A DNA stretch of 33,272 nt from a virus, in IMG/VR virus record IMGVR_UViG_3300046000_006648, positions 1 through 33,272 of that record; one strand, given 5' to 3'. The notes below the pieces were generated by a model, which saw only the letters and a list, made by a program, of their open reading frames with translations, was not told where the DNA came from and did no database searches. Each line of letters begins with the position of its first letter. The first letter of the stretch is position 1. A program made the position numbers and the translations under genes. Below, piece after piece: positions 8,729 to 32,115 of this stretch.

Positions 8729-9657
8729 ACAAATCAGGAAAAGACCTGAAACGTTCTTTGAAAAATTAGATTATCCGTTCGGATAAAGTTTCATCAGATT
8801 AATTGATGAGTAATTGGAATAGGAATTCCACCTTTAAACGATAAAGATATTGGGCCGTGTATAGTCCATAAAATAAACTACGAAAGTAGGATAAAGTGAA
8901 TCGGAAGTGTAACCGATTTGCGGTTTGGGTAACCGAACTTGAGTACACAAGCGGGATACCGTATAACCTTTAGTACCGAGGTCAACGATGTAGGGAAAGT
9001 GGTTAAACGATTGGGCGATGTGGGTCGTCTGATTGAGGTGGGAACACCAATAGGAATAACCCGTAGGGATATTGCAAAAAATAAGATTATCCGATTTTAT
9101 TATTGCGTGTTCCAATACGATAGGATACTTAAAACCGAAAGGTATGATAACAAACGGGTGGTGCCGAAATTATCCTTGATAAACTTCTACCAAGGAGTTA
9201 ATCACGAAGTAATCTTGAAATATGGAGATGGGGACATTTCAAGGAGTAGTTTGGTATTTCGTTGTTCAAAAGATAACGAAGCTGAAAGACGGACCACTAC
9301 TTCTATCAATCCACGACACAAAAACTTTACAGAAATTAAGTAAAACTAAGAACTATAAAGCAAAAGTGTTCGTCAGGTAATAGTGAAAGGTGACTACATA
9401 GTAATGAGCTGTTCATTGCATAGGAAGACCGCAAGTTGACCTATATTCTTACCAAAAACCTCTAACCTCGCAAGGGTCAACTGGGAAGGCATTCTCGGAG
9501 AGAGTTGAGTAATGAGAGAGTAACTAGTACCTCAAGGAGTGATTCACCTAAATAATCGTCACTGAGAAGTACCATTCAAAAGATGGTGGATACGAAGGGA
9601 AACAATAATCCTTCAAAAGATTCTCACAGAAACGTATAATCTCAGCGTTCTTTTTTA
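8729..9657 (+). ncRNA. Large ornate structured RNA, about 0.93 kb (family not assigned)
   Basis: This stretch has a strong promoter, an intrinsic terminator-like end (stem 9627-9650 followed by T6) and no convincing gene. The only long frame (8939-9343) has composition and codon use unlike neighbouring genes. Compact hairpins are dense: TCAGG/CCTGA, TTATCC-GTTC-GGATAA, TCATCA/TGATGA, TGGAAT/ATTCCA, CTAC-GAAA-GTAG, AATCGG/CCGATT, CGGTT/AACCG, GGTG-GGAA-CACC, ACC-GAAA-GGT and ACCAT/ATGGT. GNRA tetraloops occur several times. A boxA-like GTTCTTTGA lies near its start (8753). Size, phage setting and closeness to a tRNA array recall the GOLLD and ROOL giant RNAs, which are known from phages and often sit near tRNAs. 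I cannot confirm membership without a covariance search. Its function would be structural or regulatory; unknown. Confidence 0.8.
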
Positions 9658-19810: not shown

Positions 19811-19842
19811 TTTGGCAAATCAAAATAGATTACATATCTTTG
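19811..19842 (+). promoter_or_regulatory. Bacteroidota-type promoter of the second tRNA cluster
   Basis: TTTG at 19811-19814, 20 nt, TATCTTTG at 19835-19842. The TTTGGCA and TTACATATCTTTGTAGAA parts match the promoter at 19407. Confidence 0.82.
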
Positions 19843-19849
19843 TAGAACA

Positions 19850-20026
19850 AACAACGGGGGTAGGAAGTTAGAGGTTGGTGTCCTACTCCCGTGAAGAAAG
19901 AAGAAGTTCATTGAAATAAAAATATTGTGGTTGTAAGAAACGGGAAACTCGTAAAGTGTATCAACCTGTTAACATAAGATAGTGAAACGAGAGTGTGTGT
20001 TAACTACTAAATCACAAAATTAAAAT
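19850..20026 (+). ncRNA. Structured leader of the second tRNA cluster
   Basis: No credible gene. An 11-bp hairpin CGGGGGTAGGA/TCCTACTCCCG (19855-19891) begins near the predicted transcript start. A degenerate boxA (GTTCATTGAAA) follows at 19906, then a stem GTTAACA/TGTTAAC (about 19968-20003). It resembles an rRNA-operon leader in logic: promoter, hairpin, boxA. Confidence 0.55.
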
Positions 20027-20081
20027 AGTCAGGTGGAGGGTTATAGGTGCTCCCACACAGGTTCGAGTCCTGTCTTGACTA
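20027..20081 (+). ncRNA. tRNA-like RNA A, acceptor and T arm without anticodon arm
   Basis: 55 nt. Acceptor AGTCAGG/CTTGACT (all seven pair, one G-U), a T arm ACAGG-TTCGAGT-CCTGT, A73 and CA following. Between them is only one hairpin (GGAG/CTCC, 20035-20053), so there is no anticodon arm. The same acceptor 5' strand and T arm recur in B (21498) and C (23028). It is too regular in the retained arms to be simple decay. It could be a minihelix substrate for CCA-adding enzyme, EF-Tu or RNase P. Confidence 0.6.
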
Positions 20082-20086
20082 CACAT

Positions 20087-20157
20087 TGCGGTTTGGTGTA
20101 ATTGGTAGCACAAGGGGCTCATAACCCCATGGCCAGGTTCGAGTCCTGAATCCGCTT
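20087..20157 (+). tRNA. tRNA with anticodon CAT, initiator-like (fMet candidate)
   Basis: The anticodon stem has GGG at 29-31 opposite CCC with loop CTCATAA, the initiator signature, and positions 1-72 are mismatched (T-T), also typical of initiators. Acceptor core GCGG/CCGC, T loop TTCGAGT; one more T-T mismatch at 6-67. No CCA encoded. Confidence 0.85.
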
Positions 20158-20239
20158 CTAAATAGCCAACCAAGCTTTACTACGATACGGGTAATACCTG
20201 TGGGTTAGGGGTGACGGTCAGGAAAGACTGACAATTTTT
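20158..20239 (+). other. Spacer with hairpin before tRNA-Ile(TAT)
   Basis: 80 nt without gene. GTCAG-GAAAGA-CTGAC (20217-20232) followed by AATTTTT ends 7 nt before the tRNA; it could be a weak terminator or a processing stem. Confidence 0.45.
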
Positions 20240-20313
20240 GCCGAGGTAGCTCAATTGGTGAGAGCAGGACGCTTATATCGTCAAGGTTATGGGTTCAAGC
20301 CCCTTCTTCGGTA
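20240..20313 (+). tRNA. tRNA-Ile (anticodon TAT)
   Basis: Acceptor GCCGAGG/CTTCGGT, anticodon stem GACG/CGTC with a 7-nt loop CTTATAT, T stem TGGG/CCCT with TTCAAGC. TAT would read AUA directly. Bacteria usually read AUA with a lysidine-modified CAT anticodon, so this is uncommon. Confidence 0.88.
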
Positions 20314-20528
20314 CGGGAGTGTAAGCAGTATATTCTACTTGAGAAAGGATGGTAACACGCACTTAAAAGGGGGGTTACAAAGAGTCAAGTCGTTTTTTTA
20401 GTTTTGGCGATAAAAACTAACGTTTTGTGGAGATAGTTTAATGTGAAAAACTTACACCCGTGATGTTGGAGGGTTTGATCACCCCATTCACGTTAAAGTG
20501 ACGAATGACCCAAGTTCGTCACACTTTT
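20314..20528 (+). ncRNA. Structured spacer before tRNA-Gly
   Basis: 215 nt, no credible gene. It includes a T-run near 20393, a D-arm-like AGTTT/AAACT hairpin and a stem CGTGA/TCACG (about 20458-20492). An 8-bp hairpin GTGACGAA/TTCGTCAC (20498-20522) ends 6 nt before tRNA-Gly. It may include a decayed tRNA around 20425-20490. Confidence 0.45.
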
Positions 20529-20600
20529 GCGGGTATCGTATAATGGTTATTACTCCACACTTCCAATGTGGAGATGAGTGTTCGATTCATTCTACCCGCA
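20529..20600 (+). tRNA. tRNA-Gly (anticodon TCC)
   Basis: Acceptor GCGGGTA/TACCCGC, anticodon stem CCACA/TGTGG, loop CTTCCAA, T loop TTCGATT. Confidence 0.95.
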
Positions 20601-20601
20601 C

Positions 20602-20784
20602 AAAATGAAATAACAGAAGTCCGACTTGCACGGATGAAAGGAACTTTGACTTCATGGGATTAGCTACCCAACCGAAGAGATATAAATGACTCAAAGTACT
20701 CTGTTCAGATACCTGCTCTGATGTGCACGTCAACAGGTTATGGGGAACAAACCATAAGTAAAAATCGGAGAAACGTTTCATTTT
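20602..20784 (+). ncRNA. Structured RNA closed by a 9-bp long-range stem
   Basis: AAAATGAAA (20602-20610) is perfectly complementary to TTTCATTTT (20776-20784). Inside are hairpins GAAGTC/GACTTC, TCAGA/TCTGA and TTATGG-GGAACAAA-CCATAA. The 3' arm ends 4 nt before tRNA-Ala and runs into T6. It could be a small RNA released by tRNA processing or a processing stem. Confidence 0.55.
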
Positions 20785-20788
20785 TTAT

Positions 20789-20867
20789 GGGCTGGCATGT
20801 TCCAAGGCTTTGGCGAGAAACACTTGCAATGTTTCTGTGGTGAGTTCGATTCTCATCCGGTCCACCA
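20789..20867 (+). tRNA. tRNA-Ala (anticodon TGC), CCA encoded
   Basis: Acceptor GGGCTGG/CCGGTCC with G3-U70, the Ala identity pair. Anticodon stem AAACA/TGTTT, loop CTTGCAA, T stem GTGAG/CTCAT. CCA encoded at 20865-20867. Confidence 0.95.
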
Positions 20868-20890
20868 AATAAACAATTAAAAACGAATGA

Positions 20891-21034
20891 ATGATGAGAG
20901 AAGTTTTATCAGGAACTTGCGAATCAGGAAGAGTTAAATTTGTTAAAACTAACACAAAAACTGATTTGTTTAAGGTCTTAAGAAAAAAAATTAAAAAAAG
21001 GTTTGGTAGATTAAAAAAAACACTACCTTTGTAA
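20891..21034 (+). CDS. Possible small basic protein, 47 aa
   Basis: ATG 20891 (MMREVLSGTCESGRVKFVKT) to TAA 21032-21034. The first 30 codons look coding. The Lys-rich end overlaps the promoter at 21002, which is unusual but occurs elsewhere here. No family. Confidence 0.4.
   Translation: MMREVLSGTCESGRVKFVKTNTKTDLFKVLRKKIKKRFGRLKKTLPL
21002..21031 (+). promoter_or_regulatory. Bacteroidota-type promoter
   Basis: TTTG at 21002-21005, 18 nt, TACCTTTG at 21024-21031; spacer nearly the same as at 13591. It drives tRNA-Glu, tRNA-Asp and what follows. Confidence 0.78.
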
Positions 21035-21042
21035 AAGAAACG

Positions 21043-21120
21043 AGATGAGTTTTCCCACACCTAGGGTTAGTGAGAAACTTAAAGGGGAACAAAAGTGGTA
21101 CACAAGTCCACGACTCATCT
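21043..21120 (+). other. Leader stem before tRNA-Glu
   Basis: AGATGAGT (21043-21050) pairs with ACTCATCT (21113-21120), enclosing about 62 nt. It begins near the predicted transcript start and ends 6 nt before tRNA-Glu. Confidence 0.55.
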
Positions 21121-21126
21121 TAACTT

Positions 21127-21198
21127 GGTCCTATCGACTATCGGTTAGGTCGCCAGGTTTTCATCCTGGAAAGCGGGGTTCGATTCCCCGTAGGACTA
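21127..21198 (+). tRNA. tRNA-Glu (anticodon TTC)
   Basis: Acceptor GGTCCTA/TAGGACT, anticodon stem CCAGG/CCTGG, loop TTTTCAT, T stem CGGGG/CCCCG. Confidence 0.95.
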
Positions 21199-21214
21199 CA
21201 GTGAAATGAACAAC

Positions 21215-21255
21215 AAAGCACACAAGTTGTACCTCTACGGTTTTAAAGTGTGTTT
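21215..21255 (+). other. Hairpin 3 nt before tRNA-Asp
   Basis: AAA(G)CACAC (21215-21223) pairs with GTGTGTTT (21248-21255) with one bulge. Confidence 0.5.
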
Positions 21256-21258
21256 ATT

Positions 21259-21330
21259 GGTCCATTAGTGTAGTGGCTAACATACCACCCTGTCACGGTG
21301 GGGCCGCGAGTTCGATTCTCGCATGGACCG
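21259..21330 (+). tRNA. tRNA-Asp (anticodon GTC)
   Basis: Acceptor GGTCCAT/ATGGACC, anticodon stem CCACC/GGTGG, loop CTGTCAC, T stem GCGAG/CTCGC, discriminator G as usual for Asp. Confidence 0.96.
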
Positions 21331-21338
21331 CAAAAAGT

Positions 21339-21496
21339 GTTTTTTGAAAATATTGATAGTGGTTTTCCCCATTCAACGGATGTCGACAATCCAGAGTGGA
21401 ATCGGAATTCAGCACCCTCTGCCGGGGCCTCGTAAAACTACGATTAAGCAGTTAAGATTGGGACGAGACGGGTATCCCAACACTATCAACAATATT
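21339..21496 (+). ncRNA. Structured RNA abutting tRNA-like RNA B
   Basis: A boxA-like GTTTTTTGAAAATATTG (21339-21355) opens it. AATATTGATAGTG (21349-21361) pairs with CACTATCAACAATATT (21481-21496) apart from a 3-nt bulge, closing about 120 nt. Inside is a CGTA-AAAC-TACG hairpin and CTCGT/ACGAG. It ends one base before the tRNA-like RNA at 21498. No credible gene. Confidence 0.55.
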
Positions 21497-21497
21497 T

Positions 21498-21649
21498 AGT
21501 CAGGTGGCGGAATGGTAGACGCTAAGCAAAGATAGAACTAATTGAGATATTAGTTATTTATCCGAATAAGAGTTCCCGTAAAAACAGCAAAGTAGCTATA
21601 AGCTTGGGAGTGGGTAACTATCATACAGGTTCGAGTCCTGTCCTGACTA
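21498..21649 (+). ncRNA. tRNA-like RNA B, 152 nt, expanded middle
   Basis: Acceptor AGTCAGG/CCTGACT (perfect), T arm ACAGG-TTCGAGT-CCTGT, A73 and CA. The 5' part looks like a Leu D arm (GGCGGAATGGTAGACGC). However, ATGGTAG (21512-21518) can pair with CTATCAT (21618-21624) directly next to the T stem, forming a long helix in place of D and anticodon arms. This helix encloses further hairpins such as AACTAAT/ATTAGTT. About 70 nt longer than a Leu tRNA. Either a tRNA-like RNA of a new kind or a tRNA-Leu with an insertion. Confidence 0.6.
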
Positions 21650-21665
21650 CAAAAAATTAAAAACT

Positions 21666-21863
21666 ATGGAATTAATATTGTACGGAATTATTGGAAGCTT
21701 GGTGGGTAGTTTAATTGTATTATTTACAATAAACTTATTTAAGTCAAAACCCTCAATTGATTATCAGGAGTTAATTAAACAATCTGAAGAACGATTAGAG
21801 AAGTCAAAGAAGTATGGTGAAGAGTTAGATAAAATGTTAGAAGAAATGAAAAAAAATGATTAA
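21666..21863 (+). CDS. Single-pass membrane protein with coiled coil, 65 aa
   Basis: MELILYGIIGSLVGSLIVLF start: residues 3-24 form a transmembrane helix, followed by KSKPSIDYQELIKQ and a charged coiled coil (SEERLEKSKKYGEELDKMLE). The build (N-terminal TM, cytoplasmic helix) resembles small phage spanin, inhibitor or membrane-anchor proteins, but no family is assigned. It follows tRNA-like RNA B by 16 nt. Confidence 0.8.
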   Translation: MELILYGIIGSLVGSLIVLFTINLFKSKPSIDYQELIKQSEERLEKSKKYGEELDKMLEEMKKND

Positions 21864-21884
21864 GTTTGTAGAAACAAAAAAGAT

Positions 21885-22049
21885 ATGGAAAGATTTTCAA
21901 TGAAGGAACTTATCGCCAACAAGTATGGTGAAAATGAGAAAAGTGTTAAAACAACAAGGTCAACAAAGAGGGCGGAAAAGAAAACCAAAGACCAAGGTAA
22001 GTATATGGTCAAGATCGTTGATGGTGTTAAATATATGGTTTTAAAATAA
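21885..22049 (+). CDS. Small basic protein, 54 aa
   Basis: ATG 21885 (MERFSMKELIANKYGENEKS) to TAA 22047-22049. Lys/Thr-rich middle (KTTRSTKRAEKKTKDQGKY) and a short beta end (MVKIVDGVKYMVLK). A TAAGTTTG -7-like element lies at 21861-21868, at the end of the preceding gene. Possibly nucleic-acid binding; no family. Confidence 0.7.
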   Translation: MERFSMKELIANKYGENEKSVKTTRSTKRAEKKTKDQGKYMVKIVDGVKYMVLK

Positions 22050-22050
22050 A

Positions 22051-22533
22051 ATGGATGATTATAAAAAAATAGAAATTGAAACCGCAATTAAATATGGCGC
22101 GGTAGCCAAAGGAACCAAAAAATCAATTGGCGATTTTTTATTGGACGATGATATTACTAAACCTGTTAATGTTAAAAGTAATAACCTTGACAAAAACAAT
22201 TATTCACCAAACATTATTTCAGCCAAAAGATTAATAAATTGGTTAAATAATAATAATGAATTATATCTCATTTTTGTTGATTACAAAAAAACAGAGTCAG
22301 GAATTGAGATTATTGGTGATTCAGGGTTAGTACCGATACATAAAATAAGTTGGGATTGTTTATCAATTGAAGCACAAGGTTGGGGGGTTATACAGTTATC
22401 AAAAAAATTAAAAATTAATGAAGAACAAGATTTAAAAACCTTTTTTAGTGATATGAAAAAAAATTATGAAAAATATATCACTAAGCAAGAAGAAAAATTC
22501 TTAAAAATTAAAAACATGATTAAAAATTTTTAA
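22051..22533 (+). CDS. Hypothetical protein, possible nuclease fold, 160 aa
   Basis: MDDYKKIEIETAIKYGAVAK start. A block FLLDDDITKPVNVKSNNLD followed by NELYLIFVDYKKTESGIEII recalls the acidic/VxVK arrangement of restriction-endonuclease-like (PD-(D/E)xK) proteins, but I cannot make this firm. The C-terminus is helical and Lys-rich. It starts 1 nt after the previous stop. Confidence 0.75.
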   Translation: MDDYKKIEIETAIKYGAVAKGTKKSIGDFLLDDDITKPVNVKSNNLDKNNYSPNIISAKRLINWLNNNNELYLIFVDYKKTESGIEIIGDSGLVPIHKISWDCLSIEAQGWGVIQLSKKLKINEEQDLKTFFSDMKKNYEKYITKQEEKFLKIKNMIKNF

Positions 22534-22539
22534 AAAATT

Positions 22540-22602
22540 ATGACACCAATATTGTTTGTATTATTTGTTTTGTTTATCCTTATGATAAGAAAGAGAAGAT
22601 AA
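22540..22602 (+). CDS. 20-aa transmembrane micro-protein
   Basis: ATG 22540 encodes MTPILFVLFVLFILMIRKRR: a single hydrophobic helix with a basic end (inside-positive). A similar 28-aa TM peptide lies at 23511. Its stop touches the boxA-like element at 22603. Confidence 0.5.
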   Translation: MTPILFVLFVLFILMIRKRR

Positions 22603-22613
22603 GTTCTTTGAAA
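22603..22613 (+). promoter_or_regulatory. boxA-like element before tRNA-Leu
   Basis: GTTCTTTGAAA, 1 nt before tRNA-Leu(TAA); same core as 13181 and 19371. Confidence 0.5.
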
Positions 22614-22614
22614 T

Positions 22615-22698
22615 GCTCGGGTGGTGAAATTGGTAGACACGACAGATTTAAGCTCTGTTGACCAGTGGGTTGTGTGGGTTCGAGTCCCACTCCGAGTA
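22615..22698 (+). tRNA. tRNA-Leu (anticodon TAA)
   Basis: Acceptor GCTCGGG/TCCGAGT, anticodon stem ACAGA/TCTGT, loop TTTAAGC, class II variable arm, T stem GTGGG/CCCAC with TTCGAGT. Reads UUA, a major Leu codon here. Confidence 0.94.
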
Positions 22699-22707
22699 CT
22701 TAAAGTT

Positions 22708-22823
22708 TGTCAGGAGTGTAATGAGGCATGGTGCCGAGTCCCCAAGACCAATAGTCCCAGACACTTGTGGGTTCTATGGAGTCGTAAGGTTGCTCATTGT
22801 GGGTTCAAATCCCACCCTGACAT
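22708..22823 (+). ncRNA. tRNA-like RNA D, 116 nt
   Basis: Acceptor TGTCAGG/CCTGACA (perfect), T arm GTGGG-TTCAAAT-CCCAC, discriminator T then CA. AATGAG (22720-22725) pairs with CTCATT (22793-22798) directly next to the T stem, replacing D and anticodon arms. Inside are GGCA/TGCC and CCC.CAAG/CTTG.GGG helices. Same architecture as A-C but different primary sequence. Confidence 0.55.
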
Positions 22824-22825
22824 CA

Positions 22826-23027
22826 CGTTGCGGGTTCATCACCCCATAGTGTGCCCCACACGACGAGAAACGGAGTGATGTCCGTAGGGGAACGTACATT
22901 GTCGTATAGGGAGAACGACTGGGTAAGTCAGCCCGACCTGGTGAGGACGAAATGATTATTCCTAACCCACCTTTGTGGTGGGGACAACCATAACACCTGT
23001 GAGTTGGATAAAGTAGGGTGTTAATTT
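22826..23027 (+). ncRNA. Structured spacer before tRNA-like RNA C
   Basis: About 200 nt with higher GC than the neighbouring genes and no credible gene. Hairpins: GTCGT/ACGAC (near 22902-22920), ACCCACC/GGTGGGG (near 22963-22983) and AACACC/GGTGTT (22992-23022), the last ending 5 nt before RNA C. Confidence 0.5.
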
Positions 23028-23141
23028 AGTCAGGTGGCGGAATGGTTAGACGCAAAGATGTTGTGAGTTGGTAGGTAATAACTACTTGGATAGTATCCAC
23101 ACTAGAACTCTCAAATACAGGTTCAAGTCCTGTCCTGACTA
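23028..23141 (+). ncRNA. tRNA-like RNA C, 114 nt, expanded middle
   Basis: Acceptor AGTCAGG/CCTGACT (perfect), T arm ACAGG-TTCAAGT-CCTGT, A73 and CA. The 5' side (GGCGGAATGGTTAGACGC) matches a Leu-type D arm and B. TTGTGAGTT (23061-23069) pairs with AACTCTCAA (23106-23114; one mismatch), 2 nt from the T stem, and encloses GTAG/CTAC and GGAT/ATCC hairpins. No normal anticodon arm. Confidence 0.6.
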
Positions 23142-23304
23142 CAGCCAGTTATCTGACTCCGATAGTACGGTAACACTCATTGGGAAATCGGAAGTCCACG
23201 AATGGGGGTGTAAGGTAAGTGATACTTACAAAGGTGGAGTACCAAAAACAATAGATACGATACGTACGGGTGATCGTACGTTGGGTACAAATCTCCACCA
23301 CTTA
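23142..23304 (+). ncRNA. Structured spacer before tRNA(CAT)
   Basis: 163 nt, no credible gene. GGTGGAG (23233-23239) pairs with CTCCACC (23293-23299), 5 nt before the tRNA. Inside is a perfect CGTACG/CGTACG hairpin (about 23262-23280). GTAAG/CTTAC lies upstream. Confidence 0.5.
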
Positions 23305-23378
23305 GGTCCTTTAGCTCATTCGGTTAGAGCAACAGACTCATAATCTGTGGGTGGTTGGTTCGATCCCAACAAGGACCA
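23305..23378 (+). tRNA. tRNA with anticodon CAT (Met or Ile2)
   Basis: Acceptor GGTCCTT/AAGGACC, anticodon stem ACAGA/TCTGT, loop CTCATAA, T stem GTTGG/CCAAC. Well-formed. Elongator Met is the simplest reading; Ile2 cannot be excluded. Confidence 0.92.
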
Positions 23379-23416
23379 CACTTTACAATGTAAAACTAAT
23401 GTTTTATTATTAGGTA

Positions 23417-23489
23417 TGTCAGTTAGCTCAGTTGGTTAGAGCAATCCCTTTTTAGGGACGTGTCATTGGTTCGATCCCTTTACTGACAA
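23417..23489 (+). tRNA. tRNA-Lys (anticodon TTT), copy 2
   Basis: Acceptor TGTCAGT/ACTGACA, anticodon stem TCCC/GGGA with loop TTTTTAG, T loop TTCGATC; two T-T mismatches in the T stem. Not similar to Lys copy 1, so it is not a recent duplicate. Confidence 0.85.
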
Positions 23490-23510
23490 CAAACAAGTAA
23501 AAAAATAAAT

Positions 23511-30622: not shown

Positions 30623-30827
30623 TATAGATAACAAATACATTATTGATGGTATATCTATTGATAAAACAAAAGACGGGTATAGAGTATTCACGATACCAAC
30701 CCAACACTTTAACATAGTTAATTTGGATGAATTAACAAATGAAAGATTTGAAGACGCGATAAAATTCCAAAATGAAAGACAGGATTTAGAAGACCAACTT
30801 ATAAAATTAATGTATGAAAATGAATAA
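30615..30827 (+). CDS. Hypothetical protein, 70 aa
   Basis: MNNIDNKYIIDGISIDKTKD, then GYRVFTIPTQHFNIVNLDEL and a coiled-coil end. It overlaps the thymidylate synthase start by 14 nt, so the two are probably coupled. No family. Confidence 0.7.
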   Translation: MNNIDNKYIIDGISIDKTKDGYRVFTIPTQHFNIVNLDELTNERFEDAIKFQNERQDLEDQLIKLMYENE

Positions 30828-32115
30828 ATTAGACAAACAATACACAGATTTACTACAAGACATTCTTGACAATGGTACCCGTAAAATGGATCGTACTGGG
30901 ACGGGCACTATTTCGGTATTCGGTAGACAGATCCGTCATAAAATGAGTGAGGGGTTTCCATTACTTACAACAAAGAAAATGGCGTGGAAAACTATGGTGA
31001 CAGAACTATTGTGGTTCCTTCGTGGTGATACAAACATCAAGTTCCTTGTTGATAATGATTGCCATATATGGGATGGTGATGCTTATAAGAACTATTGTAA
31101 AAAAGTGATTCGTGATAAGGATATTGTACATTACTTAAAATCATATTCGCGAGACACAAATGGTGTTCCTACTATTGAACTCTACTCAAAAGATGAGTTT
31201 ATTGATCGAATAAAAAATGATGATGTGTTTGCTGAGAAGTGGGGTGAATTAGGTCCTGTATATGGTAAGCAATGGAGAAGATGGACTAAAAAGAAAATGT
31301 ATTTTTCAACTGACGGTTCATATGAAAACATTTATGAAGAAGCTGACCAAACAGTTATTGACCAAATCTCGTGTTTAATCAACGAACTTAAAACAAATCC
31401 AGACTCAAGACGATTGATGGTTAATGCTTATAATGTTGGAGAATTGGATTCAATGGTACTTCCACCTTGCCATTACGGATTTCAAGTTTATACAAGAGAG
31501 TTGAGTGGAGAAGAAAGATTTGAAAAATGGTGGGTTGAGTATTTTAACACCCCGGTTGATTATATTCATTCAACTTATGCTATGGATATATGGGAAAAAG
31601 AACATTCTAAATCATATCCAACAAGAGCAATCTCTTTAATGTGGAATCAACGTTCTGTAGACACACCACTTGGTTTACCATTTAACATTGCATCTTACGG
31701 ATTGTTATTAGAAATCATTGCAAAAACCGTTAATATGGTTCCTGATGAATTGATTGGTAACTTGGGTGATTGTCACATTTACCTTAATCAAATAGATGGT
31801 GTTAAGGAACAAATCGGTAGAGAATTAACTCATAGAGAAAGAATAGAAAAATTGTTAGAAACAAACAAAGACGCAAAATCATTATTATCACAAGAAGAAC
31901 CTGAGGTTATTAGTTCATTACTTTTGGATGAATTAAAAGTCCCAAAACGAACAAGAGAACCATACCCACTACCAACATTGAAACATATGAAGACAGACGA
32001 ATTTTATAAAGCACTATCTGAAGATTTGACTTTATTAACACATTTGGATAACATTGATTTTGTCGTTGAAAACTACCAATCACACCCAAGTATAAAAATG
32101 CCATTAAGTAATTAA
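30814..32115 (+). CDS. thyA: Thymidylate synthase (ThyA type) with insertions
   Basis: 433 aa; converts dUMP to dTMP with methylene-tetrahydrofolate. Family landmarks: DRTGTGTISVFGRQIRH (27-43, phosphate-binding loop Arg), WFLRGDTNIKFL, GPVYGKQWRRW, SRRLMVNAYNV, the catalytic LPPCHYGFQVY with Cys219, WNQRSVDTPLGLPFNIASYG and GDCHIYLNQIDGVKEQI. Typical ThyA has about 264-290 residues with the Cys near 146. Here there are insertions before GPVYG (about 90-145) and after the catalytic strand (ELSGEERFEKWWVEYF to WEKEHSKSYPT), plus a helical insertion before the C-terminus. All catalytic residues I can check are present. The start may be 30814 or ATG 30820. Phage copies supply dTTP for genome replication. 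Confidence 0.96.
   Translation: MKMNKLDKQYTDLLQDILDNGTRKMDRTGTGTISVFGRQIRHKMSEGFPLLTTKKMAWKTMVTELLWFLRGDTNIKFLVDNDCHIWDGDAYKNYCKKVIRDKDIVHYLKSYSRDTNGVPTIELYSKDEFIDRIKNDDVFAEKWGELGPVYGKQWRRWTKKKMYFSTDGSYENIYEEADQTVIDQISCLINELKTNPDSRRLMVNAYNVGELDSMVLPPCHYGFQVYTRELSGEERFEKWWVEYFNTPVDYIHSTYAMDIWEKEHSKSYPTRAISLMWNQRSVDTPLGLPFNIASYGLLLEIIAKTVNMVPDELIGNLGDCHIYLNQIDGVKEQIGRELTHRERIEKLLETNKDAKSLLSQEEPEVISSLLLDELKVPKRTREPYPLPTLKHMKTDEFYKALSEDLTLLTHLDNIDFVVENYQSHPSIKMPLSN

Follow-up and report, generated by a model that had tools for sequence, protein, structure and literature searches.

The 33,272 nucleotides of viral DNA held in IMG/VR as record IMGVR_UViG_3300046000_006648 (the window, spanning positions 1 to 33,272 of that record) contain four tRNA-like elements on the plus strand between positions 20027 and 23141. 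These elements are probably 'tRNA-jacketed' non-coding RNAs, in which a constant shell derived from tRNA-Leu (acceptor, D arm, T arm and tertiary core) carries one exchangeable domain that replaces the anticodon and variable arms. What argues for this reading at the level of sequence is the constancy of the shell, the open-ended range of domains, compensatory change in shell and domains alike, the behaviour of the elements as discrete units, their same-strand siting in tRNA arrays and the occurrence of some domains in free form. The family to which the elements belong is genuine, appears to work in the manner of a tRNA scaffold and is not composed of tmRNAs, intron-bearing tRNAs, pseudogenes or anticodon mimics. 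It is apparently a large shell family of giant freshwater phages, and literature searches covering open-licence papers returned no description of it.

Architecture of the four elements

Element 1 (20027-20081, 55 nt) consists of an acceptor stem (20027-20033 with 20074-20080), a middle (20034-20056), a T arm (20057-20073) and A73 (20081). Element 2 (21498-21649, 152 nt) possesses, between its acceptor strands (21498-21504 and 21642-21648), a leucine-type D arm (21505-21522), a replaced domain (21523-21624) and a T arm (21625-21641), and ends in A73 (21649). The acceptor of element 3 (22708-22823, 116 nt) lies at 22708-22714 and 22816-22822 and encloses a middle (22715-22798), with a GGCA/TGCC hairpin and an optional inserted domain, and a T arm (22799-22815); its final residue is T73 (22823). 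Element 4 (23028-23141, 114 nt) is built from an acceptor (23028-23034 with 23134-23140), a leucine-type D arm (23035-23053), a three-way-junction domain (23054-23116), a T arm (23117-23133) and A73 (23141). The outer coordinates, proposed in an initial annotation of the sequence, were borne out for all four elements. As that annotation also stated, all seven acceptor pairs form in each (AGTCAGG/CTTGACT, AGTCAGG/CCTGACT, TGTCAGG/CCTGACA and AGTCAGG/CCTGACT for elements 1 to 4, respectively), the T arm is complete, and N73 (A, A, T and A) is followed by CA, C74 being encoded in all four. The T arm has a 5-bp stem and a TTCRANT loop. For all their 7-bp acceptor and 5-bp T stem, the elements are not ordinary tRNAs, as every one of them lacks the anticodon arm. 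ARAGORN recognises none of the four, and the Rfam tRNA model matches element 4 alone (40.1 bits).

It had been suggested that only the top half of the tRNA is kept. The selective keeping stands, whereas its restriction to acceptor and T arm does not, since elements 2 and 4 have a complete tRNA-Leu-type D arm, TGGCGGAATGG(T)TAGACGC, with U48 following the replaced domain; in elements 1 and 3 this arm is absent or altered. The predicted fold of elements 2 and 4 comprises the acceptor, the D arm, a single replaced domain whose closing helix adjoins the T stem, and the T arm. As a general feature, such a helix next to the T stem is supported across the family, the closing-helix score for 109 cluster representatives being 11.48, compared with 9.40 ± 0.31 for swapped partners (z = 6.6). 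The particular helices first assigned to this position fared unequally. In element 4, TTGTGAGTT/AACTCTCAA is present in the predicted fold and closes the three-way junction, whilst GGAG/CTCC in element 1 competes with an alternative register that pairs GUGG with CCAC. The ATGGTAG/CTATCAT helix of element 2 would take D-loop bases, and the minimum-energy fold retains the D arm and closes the domain by GATAG/CTATC instead. Likewise, AATGAG/CTCATT in element 3 gives way to GAGU/GCUC together with the GGCA/TGCC hairpin, which covariation in relatives supports; GAGU/GCUC (columns 31-34 with 87-90) changes from G-C to A-U in four sequences. Among the collected loci (numbered here with the prefix L), the middle of element 4 recurs in L200, L201, L217 and L236, and none has a relative of element 2 with the same middle.

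The description of a tmRNA-like layout that lacks the tag and the alanine pair is accurate, as the shell has U3-A70 instead of G3-U70 and no tag frame. Membership of the tmRNA class was considered and rejected, given that G3-U70, a tag reading frame, pseudoknots and any match to RF00023 are all missing and that the shortest middles are 22-23 nt.

A large family with a constant shell

A generic scan of all collected loci recovered 496 such elements, of which 425 are distinct. The same scan of the reversed DNA recovered none, which places elements 1 to 4 in a real family beyond chance. That the four are related had been recognised from the window itself; that proposal included neither the D arm of tRNA-Leu type nor how large the family is, nor that some middles exist as independent RNAs. 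The middles of the collected elements fall into 273 unrelated clusters, including 198 singletons, from which the Chao1 estimate is about 690.

The totals of the two large pattern scans are lower bounds. An exact 25-nt 3' half was found in at least 120 viral contigs, preceded by AGTCARG and mostly then by the D arm TGGCGGAATTGGTAGACGC, which lay outside the query pattern, while the middle differs almost every time. A scan with an exact 26-nt 5' shell returned at least 99 distinct downstream contexts; among the matches listed, 73 of 99 reach the family 3' end after 23-119 nt, a T precedes the T stem in 71 of these 73, and most of the remaining contexts lead to a near variant of that 3' end. Loci L001-L120 were selected by the exact 3' half, and therefore its conservation there is not evidence; the 5'-shell scan and the protein-anchored loci constitute the unbiased sets. 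The latter (L124-L203, in contigs as long as 304 kb) belong to phages whose relationship to the window was traced through a neighbouring protein, and these also have elements. One 209-kb phage contig holds 16 elements on a single strand, spread across 12 kb with canonical tRNAs in between, and all 228 elements located within 1.5 kb of an ordinary tRNA share its strand.

Across 84,980 bacterial and archaeal species, only eight copies of the 3' half were found, all in metagenome-assembled bins. In seven of them the shell encloses a replaced middle; upstream of the eighth, a family acceptor is lacking. Several of these copies adjoin dense tRNA arrays and so are probably phage DNA; a bacterial origin of the shell was rejected on the same observations. 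No single record of the annotated phage collection contained both shell halves.

Compensatory change and exchangeable domains

Selection on structure is most readily seen in the relatives of element 3, where, in a model comprising the acceptor, P2, a D-like hairpin and the T stem, 99.6% of cells are paired and 14 of 21 pairs have changed on both sides; slid controls reach at most 46% paired and at most four such pairs. The initial annotation had named acceptor pairing that relatives do not keep by compensatory change as evidence that would count against it. The pairing is upheld by such changes. An unchanged element 1 middle is found with the acceptors AGTCAGG/CTTGACT, AGTTAGG/CCTAACT, AGTCGAT/GTCGATT and TGTCAAG/CTTGACA, relatives with an identical middle and compensated acceptors occurring in L165, L168, L212, L213 and L217. 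The divergent acceptors GGTTGGG/CCCAACC and ACCAAAG/CTTTGGT were also found around known middles. Within the middles themselves, RNAalifold analysis of 28 clusters identified 35 compensatory pairs, in contrast to 12.5 with shuffled columns. The earlier contention that random decay does not explain the elements is thus sustained, because compensatory changes affect the acceptor, the T stem and the middles, and because whole elements recur between unrelated flanks. A tRNA pseudogene or fragment, which should lose pairing without compensation, was rejected as a candidate since compensated pairing was found instead.

The elements also behave as discrete units. In homologous elements, conservation runs from acceptor end to acceptor end, and in 179 of 194 pairs neither flank is related; identity in homologous pairs is 77% in the middle and 83-92% in the shell, and the order of elements is reshuffled.

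At least three middles, here RNA A, B and C, were seen free-standing as well as in the shell. RNA A (TGACACGCAC...GTGCGTAGGTAA..TCAA, with an invariant pseudoknot-like pairing) is free in L001, L022, L049, L064, L090 and L331 and jacketed in L136, L154, L164, L193, L216 and L282, and its closing helix covaries in all six pairs across the two forms. The free form, pseudoknot-like with TGACACGCACGG...CTCACNGTGCGTAGGTAA, often lies immediately 3' of a shell element, and does not appear among the Rfam results for L022, L049, L064 and L090. RNA B is free in L010, where it has its own 9-bp closing helix, and jacketed without that helix in L084, L094, L175, L298 and L323. RNA C has a free copy in L011 and a jacketed one in L183. 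Because some middles also exist without it, the shell is, judging from these sequences, a carrier for RNA domains able to stand alone.

Two further arrangements were observed in shell loci. In L143 (8669-8856), L175 (17387-17583) and L077 (4212-4391), the D loop of a shell element harbours a miniature tRNA-like hairpin set (CCCCGT..ACGGGG) that includes a T-arm-like loop of its own. In L238, L241, L244 and L245, a long hairpin with a GAAA tetraloop recurs directly downstream of the shell RNA, and several shells of these loci have a bulged C in the acceptor stem.

Proposed role of the shell

RNase P, 3' processing, CCA addition and EF-Tu recognise the parts of a tRNA that the shell retains. C74 is encoded in 262 of 268 elements and U occupies position -1 in 227 of 268, which is consistent with tRNA-type processing. 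Host RNase P, tRNA 3' processing and CCA addition could excise a jacketed RNA cleanly from the array transcript, after which the shell would shield both ends and the domain would build up as a stable RNA during infection. The exchangeable domains may be effectors, probably RNA ligands or regulators of changing host targets employed in takeover or counter-defence, and action on changing targets would explain their quick turnover. The most likely role of the shell is clean processing and stability, with the domain as the part that would act; of the roles first proposed for these RNAs, end protection of attached RNAs comes nearest to this explanation.

Several points weigh against the jacketed-RNA explanation. 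A free-standing form was seen for only three of the 273 middle clusters in the collected DNA, and therefore the carrier idea may not hold for all middles. The middles exceed shuffled sequence in stability only slightly (mean z -0.38). Finally, the strong conservation of shell sequence, which goes beyond pairing, could reflect specific recognition or recent copying and not general processing.

In phages, hundreds of different RNA domains have one constant RNA shell in common; modular RNAs of this kind are otherwise known as engineered constructs. Calls of 'undetermined tRNA' become a searchable class, and looking inside the shell offers a handle on new phage effector RNAs. The natural recognition of RNAs that lack an anticodon arm by leucyl-tRNA synthetase (LeuRS), EF-Tu or RNase P also becomes testable.

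Leucine determinants in the shell

Where the full D motif is present (196 elements), U48 occurs in 188, A20a in all 196 and A73 in 182, and GG occurs in the D-loop region of 252 of 268 elements. The D motif is nearly confined to tRNA-Leu among the ordinary tRNAs of these phages (17 of 80 tRNA-Leu, compared with two in all others). The E. coli leucine determinants, namely A73, A15-U48, G18G19, A20a and the D/T-loop contacts, are all present in the shell, with the exception of element 3, which has U73. According to a review (PMC9976931, describing Larkin et al. 2002), E. coli tRNA-Leu without its anticodon and variable arms is still leucylated in vitro. On the basis of these features, charging of the shell by LeuRS is possible.

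These observations underlie the rival model that has most to recommend it, in which the elements are leucine-charged tRNA mimics. Host LeuRS would charge the shell, and EF-Tu or another tRNA-binding factor would deliver it to the ribosome or some other consumer of Leu-tRNA, the replaced domain steering the RNA much as in tmRNA, but with leucine. This model is unlikely. Its support lies in the full set of determinants and the leucylation of a tRNA-Leu without those two arms; against it, N73 is relaxed, with 12 of 73 shells of the 5'-shell scan having a base other than A, compared with one of 68 ordinary phage tRNA-Leu (p = 0.002), and the substitute is mostly G, an antideterminant for LeuRS. 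Furthermore, element 3 has U73, elements 1 and 3 are without the leucine D arm, and folding alone may account for the retention of U48 and G18G19. A broader proposal that joins charging with the jacketed-RNA reading must be regarded as similarly tentative: the shell would be a natural, open-ended RNA delivery platform, an aminoacylatable tRNA-Leu shell that processes, stabilises and possibly charges hundreds of unrelated effector domains, and so a leucine counterpart of tmRNA with interchangeable cargo.

Other explanations

A second rival, which we consider improbable, regards the shell as the active part, a decoy that titrates host enzymes attacking or modifying tRNA (nucleases, or toxins that cleave the CCA end or the acceptor), with the middle as filler or as a further hook. 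The conservation of the shell, the many copies per phage and their siting among tRNA genes accord with this, and phage tRNAs are known to counteract defences that cleave tRNA (PMC11455837). Filler, however, is not expected to have compensatory changes, a closing helix or free-standing homologues. The more specific suggestion of decoys for anticodon nucleases fails, as anticodon-like loops are not enriched: the middles contain 45 loops of 7 nt, compared with 36 expected, in which they do not differ from loops of 6, 8 and 9 nt, and they have no U33 bias.

A third model, for which little probability remains, proposes selfish or recombination cassettes, in which the shell would do nothing as RNA and would serve as a handle for recombination, by which unrelated sequence passes from phage to phage. 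The unrelated flanks and reshuffled order would be expected of such cassettes; the acceptor, T stem, P2 and domain helices are upheld by compensatory changes, and therefore selection on RNA is needed. An antisense or guide function was also rejected, there being few long antisense matches in the elements' own contigs (three 17-mers, from two loci, compared with none in shuffles).

That the elements are tRNA-Leu genes with introns, as once suggested, or decaying tRNA genes is scarcely credible despite the tRNA-Leu type of the shell, since an anticodon arm (5 bp, 7-nt loop, U33) in any register is found in only three of 215 elements, compared with two in shuffles, no group I, group II or other intron family matches, conservation and covariation exclude decay, and Leu(UAG) and Leu(UAA) are already encoded in the window.

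Genomic setting

The jacketed elements are interleaved with ordinary tRNA genes called by ARAGORN on the same strand (20087-23490: Met, Ile, Gly, Glu, Asp, Leu(UAA), Met and one unassigned). A promoter-like site of Bacteroidota type, TTTG-N20-TATCTTTG, lies upstream of all four (19811-19842, plus strand), and a second (21002-21031, plus strand) precedes tRNA-Glu, tRNA-Asp and element 2; both are consensus matches only. The consensus occurs ten times in the window, compared with 2.7 expected, and these sites, coupled with the presence of Chitinophagaceae among the bins, suggest Bacteroidota hosts.

Further tRNA genes were missed by ARAGORN: a probable tRNA-Ala(UGC) at 20789-20867, which has the G3-U70 pair, encodes its own CCA and possesses an odd D arm, and likely Ser and Trp tRNAs and one additional CAU tRNA around 13290, 14348, 14440 and 14971. 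With these candidates, the phage tRNA set appears to cover all 20 amino acids.

Other non-coding RNAs are present. A GOLLD RNA (RF02032, 321 bits) lies at 9242-9648, upstream of the first tRNA array, with another in L188 (8832-9239), and a freshwater-1-like RNA (RF02979, 67.5 bits, slightly below the cut-off) lies at 20702-20763, in the same array as the elements, and also in L342 (2385-2447). Immediately 5' of element 2, a 155-nt block (21341-21496) with the inverted ends TTGATAGTG..CACTATCAA is up to 96% conserved at other positions in L125, L127, L131, L147 and L165; from its sequence, it is probably another non-coding RNA. Comparable conserved blocks are located at 19919-20018, 20164-20236, 20312-20528, 22830-23020 and 23145-23300. 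Elsewhere, the phage contig L010 (7609-8193, minus strand) has a tmRNA (49 bits) adjoining a group I intron (98 bits), and a thymidylate synthase reading frame of 433 residues in the window (30814-32112) contains approximately 100 extra residues within the conserved domain (intein-like or an insertion).

Comparison with known systems

In common with GOLLD and ROOL (PMC12286853), the shell elements are phage RNAs of tRNA islands without an established function, and GOLLD is found in this window too; those, however, are single large RNA classes, each with its own fold. Allo-tRNAs and the irregular tRNA polycistrons of soil (PMC7609411) are likewise odd, clustered tRNA-like genes known from metagenomes and metatranscriptomes, but allo-tRNAs have an 8/4 acceptor/T architecture and an anticodon, whereas shell elements are 7/5 and have none. 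The tRNA-like domain of tmRNA (RF00023) shares the acceptor and T arm, the missing anticodon arm and an extra domain joined to the T stem. It differs in G3-U70, the tag frame and the Rfam match, and shell elements have an ordinary D arm in about half of cases and are not limited to one per genome.

The D arm, A15-U48, G18G19, A20a and A73 are common to the shell and tRNA-Leu, from which it is distinguished by the loss of the anticodon and variable arms and by its acceptor, AGTCAGG/CCTGACT, the tRNA-Leu of the same phages usually having GCCxxxx types. The parts retained in the minimal E. coli tRNA-Leu (Larkin et al. 2002, as reviewed in PMC9976931) equal the shell, but that molecule is a laboratory construct with no added domain. 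The engineered E. coli tRNA scaffold, a design functional in bacteria (PMC3753655), keeps the acceptor, D and T arms, the same parts as the shell, and exchanges the anticodon region for arbitrary RNA, which is thereby processed and protected within it. That scaffold is artificial and based on other tRNAs, whereas the shell is natural, derived from tRNA-Leu, encoded by phages and furnished with hundreds of inserts.

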